A DNA stretch of 6,034 nt from Nitrospirota bacterium (GTDB taxonomy: Bacteria > JACPQY01): NCBI GenBank assembly GCA_016180645.1, contig JACPAV010000055.1:1-6034 (forward strand), given 5' to 3'. A program made the position numbers and the translations under genes. Under the pieces are notes generated by a model, which ran no database searches, was not told where the DNA came from, and saw only the letters and a program-made list of their open reading frames with translations. Shown piece by piece: positions 365 through 6,028 of the stretch (its first letter is position 1; every line of letters starts with the position of its first letter).

Positions 365-1039
365 TCAGAACTGGAACTGCCAGCCGAGGGTGGCGCCGAG
401 GGAGTCGAAGCCGGGGTTGCGGGAGTCGCCGGCGATAAGCGCGCCGTTCGAGATGTGAAGGTGGCGCAGGGATCCGAAGAAGTACGCGTCATCGAACCGG
501 CGAAACAAGAATCCTACGCCGTAGAGCGGAGTGAAGTTGACCTTGGTGCCGCCGGGTGGAAAAACGTCAGCGGTGAAGATCATGCCGATGCCGGTTTCCA
601 GGAAGGGGGTCCACTTCTCGCCGATCGGCAACTGCCATCGAGTGAAAATGTTCCCGCCGAGGCCCGCCGTGCGCACCTCGTCGTCGCGGAAGCCGGTGAG
701 ATTGAACTCCATGCCGGCGCAGAGCCAGCGGCGAAAGTGAAAACCGAAGGCGCTCCGCGCGTCGGCCACATCCGTTTCCCGTCCCCCGTGGCTTCGGAAA
801 TATCCGGCTTGCGACGAGATGAACCATGAGCGCGATCGGAGATCGCCCGATCCGCGGTCGCGGTCCGAAGGGTCCGTCTCCGTGAAGTAAAGCGATGCCG
901 CGAATGCCGGGAACCCCAGCAGGACGAGCTTCGGCTCGCCCAGCGGATTCAGCGCGTCGAAGGCCCGGGCCGGCCGGATGTCCGCCAGAAGAAGGAGCAC
1001 GGACAAGGTGAGTGACTTGACGCTAGTTGGCAGCGCCAT
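365..1039 (-). CDS. pagL: PagL-type lipid A 3-O-deacylase / acyloxyacyl hydrolase family outer-membrane protein
   Basis: PagL-family proteins are small outer-membrane beta-barrels that remove an ester-linked acyl chain from lipid A. The N-terminus is a signal peptide: a basic Lys8, hydrophobic LTLSVLLLLADI (10-21) and a likely cleavage after PARA (A26). The C-terminal third carries the family signature: NFTPLYGVGFLF (168-179), then LRHLHISNG (191-199) with the His-x-Ser pair H195 and S197, then RNPGFDS (207-213). The last residue is Phe (GWQFQF), as outer-membrane barrels require for assembly. The 224-residue length is slightly above the usual ~180-200. In Pseudomonas PagL the catalytic Glu lies 12 residues after the Ser; here that position is Pro209, with Asn208 and Asp212 nearby, as in many relatives, so catalysis is unproven. 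The ATG at 1039 is the only start that keeps the signal peptide; no good Shine-Dalgarno is seen. It may be co-transcribed with the carbonic anhydrase gene through the element. Confidence 0.82.
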   Translation of the reverse strand: MALPTSVKSLTLSVLLLLADIRPARAFDALNPLGEPKLVLLGFPAFAASLYFTETDPSDRDRGSGDLRSRSWFISSQAGYFRSHGGRETDVADARSAFGFHFRRWLCAGMEFNLTGFRDDEVRTAGLGGNIFTRWQLPIGEKWTPFLETGIGMIFTADVFPPGGTKVNFTPLYGVGFLFRRFDDAYFFGSLRHLHISNGALIAGDSRNPGFDSLGATLGWQFQF

Positions 1040-3112: not shown

Positions 3113-6028
3113 TTATCGCCGCGCTCGGGCGGTCCCCTTGCCGTTCAGCCGACGCGCGGTTTTCATTCGATTTCCATTCGTCACCCCCGCGGGCGAGCGA
3201 ACCGGGCCCGCTTGGGTGCGTTTCGCGGTGATGGCCGCTTGGGCGGCGGCCAACCGAGCGATCGGCACGCGATAGGGCGAGCAGGAGACATAGTCCAAGC
3301 CCGCATCATGGAAGAAATGGATGGACCGCGGGTCGCCCCCGTGCTCCCCGCACACACCGGTTTTCAGTTCCGGACGGGCCGAGCGGCCCTTCGCCACACC
3401 GAGTTTCACGAGCGCCCCGACCCCGAGCTGGTCCAGAGAGCTGAACGGATCGTGTTCGAGGATGTTTCGGCCCGGCACTTCGACGGGTTGTCGGCATACT
3501 TTGCAGACGGCGGCCGCCCGATCCAGTTGGTTCGACCCGCATTGCACGCAGATATTGGCGCTGTTGAGGTAGTGAGCGATGAAGCGGCCCGAATCGTCGC
3601 GTGAGAAACCGAAAGTCGTCTGCGTGAGATCGTTGGTGCCGAAGGAGAAGAACTCCGCTTCGCGCGCGATCTGGTCCGCCGTTACGGCCGCACGCGGGAG
3701 TTCGATCATCGTGCCCACACTGTACTTGAGCCGCAGGTTTTCCTTCTTCATGACTTCTTCGGCCACCCGGTGAATGAGAAGTTTCTGCGCTTTCATTTCC
3801 TGGTCCAAGCCCACCAGTGGAACCATGATTTCAGGGACCACCTTGACGTTCTGCTTGGCCACGGTGCAGGCGGCCTCGAAAATGGCGCGCGCCTGCATTT
3901 CGGTGATTTCGGGGTAGAGGATGCCGAGCCGGCAACCTCGGAAGCCGAGCATGGGGTTGAACTCGTGCAGTTCCTCGACGCGGTTCAGCAGGCGGCGTTT
4001 GGCCTCCATGTCAGCCCCGTTCCCGCGGATTTCCATCCGGGCGAGTTCCACCATCAATTCCTCCCGCTTGGGAAGAAACTCGTGGAGGGGAGGATCGAGC
4101 AGGCGGATCGTGACCGGATATCCTCTCATGATTTGGAAAAGGCCGATGAAATCATTTCGCTGAAGGGGAAGGAGCTGATGGAGGGCCTGGACGCGGTCTT
4201 CCTTCGTCCGGGCGAGAATCATCCTTTGCATGATGGGGATGCGGTCCTCCGCGAAGAACATGTGTTCCGTGCGACAGAGGCCGATGCCCTCGGCGCCGAA
4301 CCCCTTGGCGATTTCGGCCTGGTCCGGGATGTCCGCATTCGCGCGGATGCGGAGGCGGCGAACTTCATCCGCCCACTTCAGGAGCGTGGAGAAATATCGG
4401 AAGCGCTCTGAATCGCGGGAGCTGAGTTGATTCTGGATGACTTGAATGACTTCCGACGGGACGACGGCCACTTCGCCTTCGTATACGCATCCAACGAACC
4501 CATTGAGCGAGATGGGGCTGCCCTCCGGAAGGGTGCGGCCCCCAAACCGTGCGAGACGGGAAACTTCGTTGATCTCCAGCGTACCGCATCCGGCCACGCA
4601 GACCTTGCCCATTTGGCGGGCGACCACGGCGGCGTGGGAGGTCATTCCACCTTTTCCCGTCAGGATTCCGGCCGCGGCGCTCATCCCGTGGATGTCGTCG
4701 GGACTCGTCTCGGTGCGGACGAGAATCGCCCGCTCGCCGTTTCGCGCCATCTCCACGGCCTTTTCCGGCGTGAGGGCGATCAATCCGGTGGCCGCGCCCG
4801 GACCGGCCGGAAGGCCCTTGCCCAGGACGGCGGCGGAAGATTCCTTGGAGGGATCGAATACGGGAAATAGATATTGGGCGAGTTGCTCGCCATCGACGCG
4901 CATGAGGGCTTCTTCCTTATTGATCAGGCGCTTCTTGGCCATATCCACGGCCACCTTCACGGCGGCGAGCCCGGTGCGTTTCCCCGTGCGCGTCTGGAGG
5001 AGGAAAAGCTTGCCCTGCTCGATGGTGAATTCGAAATCCTGAATGTCGCGGAAATGCCTTTCCAGCCGCAACGTCACTTCCCGAAGTTTCTTGAATGCCT
5101 TCGGCATGTCCTCCTTGAGGTGGCGGATGGGCCGCGGGGTGCGGATGCCGGCCACCACGTCCTCCCCCTGTGCATTCACGAGGTATTCTCCGTAGAACTC
5201 ATTGGCGCCGGTGGCCGGATTGCGCGTGAAGCCGACTCCGGTGGCGGAGGTGTATCCCTTGTTTCCGAAGACCATGGCTTGGATGTTCACTCCGGTGCCG
5301 ATATCGTCTGGAATTCCGTATTGCTTCCTATAGAAGATCGCCCGGTCATTGTTCCACGAATCGAAGACGGCATCGCGGGCGAGGCAAAGCTGCTGGAGCG
5401 GATCCTGCGGGAACTCCTTCCCCGTTTCCCGGACCACCAACGCTTTGAACTCCTTCACCACGTCCTTCATTTCCTCCGCGGTCAGCTCCACGTCCTGCGC
5501 GCGGCCGAATTTCCTCTTCATCTCGGCGAGTTTTTCCTCGAATTTCTTTTTCTCGATCTTGAGCACGACGTCGGAATACATGGCGATGAACCGACGGGAG
5601 GAGTCCCACACGAACCGCTCGTCTTTCGTCTGGCCGATCAGCCCCAATGCCGTTCGATCGTTCAGTCCGAGATTCAGGATCGTGTCCATCATGCCCGGCA
5701 TGGAGAATTTCGCTCCCGATCGTACGGAGACGAGGAGGGGATCTTTTTCGTCGCCGAGACGCCGTCCGCAGGCGCGTTCGAGCCGCTTCAGCCCGGCCAG
5801 GCATTCCTCGTGAATTTTTCTGGGGAGTTTGCGTCCGGAGGTATTGTATTCGCGGCAGGCGTCGGTGGAAATGGTGAAGCCCGGGGGAACGGGGATCCCG
5901 AGGTTCGTCATTTCCGCCAGACCGGCTCCTTTGCCTCCCAGGAGGTCTTTCATCTTGCCGTCGCCGTCGGCGCGCCCGTTCCCGAAAAAGTAAACGTAGC
6001 GGTTGCCTTTGGCGTTGTGCTTCTCCAT
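3113..6028 (-). CDS. ppdK: Pyruvate, phosphate dikinase (PPDK), with a Cys4 insertion
   Basis: This cytosolic enzyme reversibly converts pyruvate, ATP and phosphate to PEP, AMP and pyrophosphate, linking glycolysis and gluconeogenesis. The 971-residue protein has the full family order. The N-terminal ATP-grasp domain carries KDLLGGKGAGLAEM (27-40), SVRSGAKFSMPGMMDT (101-116) and GVGFTRNPATGANEFYGEY (264-282). The phosphohistidine domain carries GGMTSHAAVVAR (460-471), with swivelling His465 and, two residues before it, the Thr that regulatory proteins phosphorylate in other PPDKs. The C-terminal PEP-binding barrel carries CRTEH (585-589), GTMIELPRA (772-780), SFGTNDLTQ (795-803) and GVCGEHGGDP (891-900) with catalytic Cys893. 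It is longer than the usual ~870-900 residues for two reasons: about 31 extra residues with four cysteines near 821-857, and a basic tail after about 935. The start is the ATG six bases from the window edge. The frame stays open upstream, so an earlier start cannot be excluded. It leads the probable operon, 27 bp before rimI. Identity is secure. Confidence 0.97.
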   Translation of the reverse strand: MEKHNAKGNRYVYFFGNGRADGDGKMKDLLGGKGAGLAEMTNLGIPVPPGFTISTDACREYNTSGRKLPRKIHEECLAGLKRLERACGRRLGDEKDPLLVSVRSGAKFSMPGMMDTILNLGLNDRTALGLIGQTKDERFVWDSSRRFIAMYSDVVLKIEKKKFEEKLAEMKRKFGRAQDVELTAEEMKDVVKEFKALVVRETGKEFPQDPLQQLCLARDAVFDSWNNDRAIFYRKQYGIPDDIGTGVNIQAMVFGNKGYTSATGVGFTRNPATGANEFYGEYLVNAQGEDVVAGIRTPRPIRHLKEDMPKAFKKLREVTLRLERHFRDIQDFEFTIEQGKLFLLQTRTGKRTGLAAVKVAVDMAKKRLINKEEALMRVDGEQLAQYLFPVFDPSKESSAAVLGKGLPAGPGAATGLIALTPEKAVEMARNGERAILVRTETSPDDIHGMSAAAGILTGKGGMTSHAAVVARQMGKVCVAGCGTLEINEVSRLARFGGRTLPEGSPISLNGFVGCVYEGEVAVVPSEVIQVIQNQLSSRDSERFRYFSTLLKWADEVRRLRIRANADIPDQAEIAKGFGAEGIGLCRTEHMFFAEDRIPIMQRMILARTKEDRVQALHQLLPLQRNDFIGLFQIMRGYPVTIRLLDPPLHEFLPKREELMVELARMEIRGNGADMEAKRRLLNRVEELHEFNPMLGFRGCRLGILYPEITEMQARAIFEAACTVAKQNVKVVPEIMVPLVGLDQEMKAQKLLIHRVAEEVMKKENLRLKYSVGTMIELPRAAVTADQIAREAEFFSFGTNDLTQTTFGFSRDDSGRFIAHYLNSANICVQCGSNQLDRAAAVCKVCRQPVEVPGRNILEHDPFSSLDQLGVGALVKLGVAKGRSARPELKTGVCGEHGGDPRSIHFFHDAGLDYVSCSPYRVPIARLAAAQAAITAKRTQAGPVRSPAGVTNGNRMKTARRLNGKGTARARR
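3494..3550 (-). other. Zinc-ribbon-like Cys4 motif inserted in PPDK
   Basis: PPDK residues 827-845 read Cys-x2-Cys-x11-Cys-x2-Cys (C827, C830, C842, C845), the spacing of a small zinc ribbon. The motif lies between two conserved blocks of the PEP-binding barrel, SFGTNDLTQ and GVCGEHGG. In the classical enzyme, for example that of Clostridium symbiosum as I recall it, the segment from GKF to DPF holds about 12 residues. Here it holds 43 (817-859). The frame is intact and the flanks match the family on both sides, so this is an in-frame insertion. Metal binding is inferred from the cysteine spacing only. Confidence 0.75.

Follow-up and report, generated by a model that had tools for sequence, protein, structure and literature searches.

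The PPDK gene and its surroundings

The window, by which we mean the whole 6,034-nucleotide stretch of DNA analyzed here, is one entire 6-kb contig of a draft genome that comprises 65 contigs. Its gene for pyruvate, phosphate dikinase (PPDK) lies on the minus strand (positions 3113–6028), encodes 971 amino acids, and was assigned from matches to TIGR01828, Pfam and the PDB. The protein scores 1285 bits over its full length against TIGR01828 (curated equivalog cut-off, 843), contains the Pfam domains PPDK_N, PEP-utilizers and PEP-utilizers_C, and is matched by the PPDKs of the PDB at E∼1e-300. PPDK, which catalyzes PEP + AMP + PPi = pyruvate + ATP + Pi, is a textbook domain-swiveling enzyme of central metabolism with many crystal structures, and the window protein consists of an ATP-grasp N domain, a swiveling central domain with the catalytic residue His465 (in GGMTSHAAVVAR), and a C-terminal PEP/pyruvate-binding barrel with the catalytic residue Cys893 (in CGEHGG, within the block GVCGEHGG). 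It shares with the bacterial PPDK of the Clostridium symbiosum type (1kbl and 1dik) the domain order, the catalytic His and Cys, the motifs GTNDLTQ, SRDD and CGEHGG, and the barrel fold. Judged from its sequence, the gene is complete and its product an apparently intact PPDK.

On the same strand, 3' of the PPDK gene, are genes for a RimI-like acetyltransferase, a dihydroorotate dehydrogenase and a gamma-carbonic-anhydrase-like protein; no gene in the PPDK neighborhood of the window hints at a special role. Elsewhere in the window, a predicted PagL-like lipid A deacylase (positions 365–1039, minus strand; 34.5 bits, cut-off 23) lies between two repeat blocks (positions 1–262 and 1073–1140). The repeats are palindromic, of sequence GGGAGCATCTGAAGATGCTCCC or the related form GGGAGGGTCTTCAGACCCTCCC, and several copies flank the gene. 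The window genome contains 115 occurrences of the pattern GGGAGCNNCTGAAGNTGCTCCC, compared with 0 of a reversed control: the repeats are a very abundant REP-like element.

Past the barrel, the PPDK ends in an Arg/Lys-rich C-terminal tail of ∼35 residues (positions 3113–3210). The proteins that share the insertion described below mostly end in basic tails as well, of varying length and sequence, while in three acidobacterial relatives (L069, L115 and L120) a basic extension is found at the N terminus instead. Elsewhere in the window genome, a minus-strand frame at positions 1–444 of locus L002 (contig C51) opens with the N-terminal 42 residues of another PPDK copy, which show 88% identity to the window PPDK, and continues without a frame break into an unrelated tail at the contig end; this fragment looks like a misassembly, a strain variant or a gene remnant.

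The Cys4 insertion and its carriers

The PEP-binding (beta/alpha)8 barrel domain (residues 530–938; positions 3215–4441, minus strand), modeled with AlphaFold2 and compared by VIA, carries in its beta6-alpha6 loop a zinc-ribbon-like insertion with four cysteines (residues 821–858; positions 3455–3568, minus strand), located by comparison with the PPDKs of the PDB and by a predicted hairpin. Its first knuckle, C827-V-Q-C830, is encoded at positions 3539–3550 and its second, C842-K-V-C845, at positions 3494–3505, both on the minus strand. The earlier note had read these residues as a CxxC-x11-CxxC motif, and the codon positions agree (C827, 3548–3550; C830, 3539–3541; C842, 3503–3505; C845, 3494–3496). 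It had also described an in-frame stretch of about 31 extra residues between GTNDLTQ and the catalytic-Cys block, and here both the size and the location are borne out. We built a profile of the insertion site from four carriers and aligned it to the solved PPDKs: profile positions 52 to 80 (29 positions, corresponding to 31 residues in the window protein) have no counterpart in any PPDK of the PDB, and the difference is a pure insertion of 29–31 residues. In the numbering of the Clostridium symbiosum enzyme, the insertion point falls after residue 790 and before residue 791; that enzyme differs from the window protein in having neither the insertion nor any cysteine there. Neither the PDB search nor the profile alignment found the insertion in any solved PPDK. 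In shuffled versions of the window protein, a CxxC-x(7-14)-CxxC pattern arose in 2 of 20,000 trials.

To determine which lineages carry the four cysteines, as the earlier note had proposed, we read 132 distinct PPDKs at this loop. They fall into two classes: 13 contain the insertion together with all four cysteines, and 119 contain neither. The distance from GTNDLTQ to DPF is 54–56 residues in the carriers, with both CxxC pairs each time, and 25–31 residues to DPF (or NPF) in the non-carriers, which show no CxxC. Loss of the cysteines from relatives sharing the insertion had been set beforehand as a way for the metal-site idea to fail, and no carrier among the 13 lacks any of the four. The insertion goes well beyond chance because the four cysteines recur in every one of these carriers, which come from four lineages. 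We regard the Cys4 insertion as confirmed to be real.

Carriers were sought in a survey of 386 genomes, recorded as relatives of the window genome and, judging from their kinship codes, apparently sampled across phyla. A PPDK match was present in 318 of them, and in six genomes, belonging to three groups, the match ran through the insertion. A second survey of 385 genomes (largely the same as the first), with the insert itself as query, recovered the same groups. Within phyla, the insertion was found in both genomes examined from the window's own phylum, in 9 of 9 examined from the phylum of genome G021, and in the single genome examined from the phylum of G015; one additional carrier, L061, a MAG labeled Nitrospirae, appeared among the matches listed from named genomes. 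Each carrier genome gave one PPDK barrel match in the survey and the group censuses. A further candidate, L108, was rejected: NPF replaces DPF in its loop and there is no insertion. In this sample, where archaea amount to a handful of named loci, the insertion is restricted to a few small bacterial lineages; carriers beyond the sample are likely to exist.

To trace the origin of the insertion, we placed the carriers on a PPDK tree built without the loop columns, where they form three groups: the window genome with G001 and L061, the phylum of G021, and G015. The same region of the tree holds PPDKs from Acidobacteriota, Zixibacteria, Ratteibacteria and a DHVE2 archaeon, all without the insertion. 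The best tree requires three changes of insertion state, and a single carrier clade is not rejected (p-AU = 0.295). The insertion may have been gained once, followed by losses or transfers, or gained two to three times. The PPDK of L120, titled as a Bifidobacterium breve MAG, groups with Acidobacteriota on this tree, and the record looks mislabeled or contaminated.

Sequence constraint and predicted fold of the insertion

Within the insertion, conservation is concentrated on the cysteines. In an alignment of four carriers (columns 47–84), five columns are invariant and four of these are the cysteines, and across all 13 carriers the cysteines are invariant while the remainder of the insert diverges. 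Their codons (36 TGC and 16 TGT) differ only by silent changes. A comparison of L151 with L153 illustrates this: all four Cys codons differ silently, while four other loop codons have changed the residue. Most carriers show a CP.CG/C..CG flavor at the knuckles. The spacer between the knuckles is 11 residues long in the window group and L061, and 9 residues long in the phyla of G021 and G015. At the level of aligned sequences, this combination of conserved cysteines and a variable spacer is the signature of a putative four-ligand metal site with a tolerant turn.

We modeled residues 530–938 with AlphaFold2, using 68 homologues from named loci. The barrel was predicted with high confidence (pLDDT 92.3, pTM 0.89), and its eight strands are readable. 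The VIA comparison gave Z = 48.4 with maize PPDK (1vbg), Z = 44–48 for PPDK of the Clostridium symbiosum type, and Z∼30 with enzyme I. In the model, the insert lies after strand beta6 (FSFG, model residues 264–268) and before helix alpha6 (model residues 341–355), and between the knuckles it is predicted to form a beta-hairpin of two-residue strands (835–836 and 841–842); its pLDDT of ∼73–87 ranks with the lowest in the barrel model. An isolated 48-mer, folded with one homologue, yielded the same two strands, with pLDDT of 79–82 over the Cys region. The earlier note had asked whether prediction would set the four cysteines apart. It does not: in the barrel and in the isolated piece alike, they are predicted at the ends of the small hairpin.

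It is instructive to compare this predicted arrangement with known metal modules. A Foldseek search with the isolated piece returned non-significant matches (best E = 0.89), though most entries are modules known to bind zinc, namely ribosomal L37e and its relatives, RNA polymerase ABC10-alpha, RING, the RNF126 zinc finger and AccD. VIA found no match with Z≥2 for the isolated ribbon among the 64 chains compared, although a piece of 48 residues is little informative in such a comparison. When the single inserts of six carriers were compared with Pfam, the sub-threshold matches were mostly to zinc modules (DZR, DZR_2, Zn_ribbon_6, Zn_Ribbon_TF and ADK_lid); none reaches the cut-off of a Pfam zinc-ribbon family. 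For ADK_lid (PF05191), the best score was 15.6 bits against a gathering score of 26.6, and the G015 insert matched with E = 0.015. The zinc ribbons of L37e, Rpb12/ABC10-alpha, AccD and DZR likewise have two CxxC knuckles ending a short beta-hairpin, as is predicted in the PPDK insert. In contrast to these, the PPDK ribbon sits in a metabolic barrel, falls below every Pfam cut-off and has no significant structural match.

The reading of the four cysteines as a metal site, put forward in the earlier note, is supported by sequence conservation and by the predicted fold, and the insert is very probably a metal ribbon of the zinc type, here still termed putative. No solved PPDK has such a site, and no description of a zinc-ribbon or Cys insertion in PPDK was found in the open-license PMC literature, judged by title and abstract; a search of the same literature for PEP synthase with zinc, judged in the same way, gave nothing relevant. 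These results agree with the suspicion that the site is absent from characterized PPDKs: the Cys4 insertion is apparently an undescribed variation of a known enzyme.

Possible roles of the insertion

The most convincing reading of these data, and one that we consider fairly probable, is that the beta6-alpha6 active-site loop of PPDK bears a zinc ribbon with a structural role. The ribbon, 29–31 residues long, would consist of two CxxC knuckles with a short beta-hairpin between them, and its four thiolates would most likely keep a single Zn2+ permanently bound. Clipped by the ion, the distal half of the loop would become a small, rigid unit, and this would stabilize the mouth of the barrel, possibly with a contact to the partner subunit or to the docking central domain. 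The metal would remain outside the chemistry and serve a structural role. If the insert is indeed a metal ribbon, a role that is purely structural or in contact is quite likely. Counted against a structural zinc ribbon are the sub-threshold Pfam scores of the single inserts, the non-significant structural matches, the comparatively low model confidence of the insert, and the fact that most PPDKs work without the insertion.

The location of the insert is suggestive in two respects. Enzyme I of the PTS has, in its C-terminal domain, a PEP-binding barrel homologous to that of PPDK, and in the E. coli protein the beta6-alpha6 loop (residues 454–477) is one of the loops carrying PEP-binding residues (PMC9856155). 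The PPDK loop starts with GTNDLTQ, the equivalent of the start of the enzyme I loop, and the carrier profile matches enzyme I only as far as the start of the insertion. Enzyme I is not known to carry a Cys4 ribbon. In addition, the dimer interface of PPDK is formed by the PEP-binding domains, the enzyme is active as a dimer only, and mutations that lower cold dissociation sit near this interface (PMC5556012).

The best functional parallel may be the zinc-clipped lid of some adenylate kinases (ADK_lid, PF05191), offered as an analogy and not as membership: it is a Cys4 zinc clip on a loop over the active site of a phosphotransferase, as the PPDK insert would be. The enzyme fold is different, however, and the lid belongs to the common fold of adenylate kinases, whereas the PPDK ribbon is an insertion. 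In Gram-positive adenylate kinases the zinc LID has a stabilizing role.

The dimer interface raises an alternative, namely that the insert is an external knob binding another protein or a partner subunit, with an altered oligomer as a result and zinc only as scaffold. The position of the PEP-binding domains at the interface is consistent with this, related PEP synthases have been deposited as 24-chain assemblies (8a8e, 9dae), and the variable surface residues of the ribbon would fit a lineage-specific partner. Against it, no surface patch is conserved across lineages besides the cysteines and the flanking IL..DPF, and we consider such a contact module unlikely.

Slightly less likely still is a redox or metal switch, in which the reduced thiols would bind zinc and release it upon oxidation or zinc scarcity, so that the loop moves and PPDK flux changes. 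The site does lie on an active-site loop, and pyruvate kinase (PF00224), found in 14 of 14 control genomes, was not found in the window genome, G001 (84% complete, which bears on the missing enzyme) or G015; PPDK may therefore be the sole PEP/pyruvate step in these organisms and a step worth regulating. The phylum of G021, however, has both PPDK and pyruvate kinase (PF00224 in 4 of the 4 genomes searched). COX1-family proteins also speak against a switch, being present in the window genome, G001, G021, G306 and G386 and absent from G015 and G168; with this mixed distribution, no respiratory type shared by the carriers is obvious, and no strict link to aerobes or anaerobes was seen. Neither a regulator nor an operon partner suggests a switch, and the four-Cys sites of zinc ribbons generally have a structural role. 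That the ribbon PPDK acts as a metal- or redox-gated PEP/pyruvate valve in candidate phyla, in at least three genomes apparently without pyruvate kinase, we hold to be improbable.

That the four cysteines bind iron in place of zinc, as a mononuclear, rubredoxin-like Fe(Cys)4 site for electron transfer or sensing, is very unlikely: one carrier insert weakly matches the rubrerythrin rubredoxin-like domain with E = 0.00089, below the Pfam cut-off, but other inserts match zinc modules equally well or better, and PPDK chemistry requires no electrons. Chance cysteines or an error in assembling a metagenome bin, conceivable for a window that is a single contig of a draft genome, are opposed by the rarity of the pattern in shuffled sequences and refuted by its recurrence with four cysteines, at the same site and in frame, in 13 genomes or bins of four lineages, which leaves this explanation a negligible probability.

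For the PPDK family, the putative zinc ribbon, as a natural insertion in the beta6-alpha6 loop, offers a ready test of how activity and stability are governed by this loop and by the barrel-barrel interface. If a sensor role proved true, it would add a new mode of regulation at the PEP/pyruvate node. The insertion is also a clean molecular marker for a few deep, mostly uncultured lineages.
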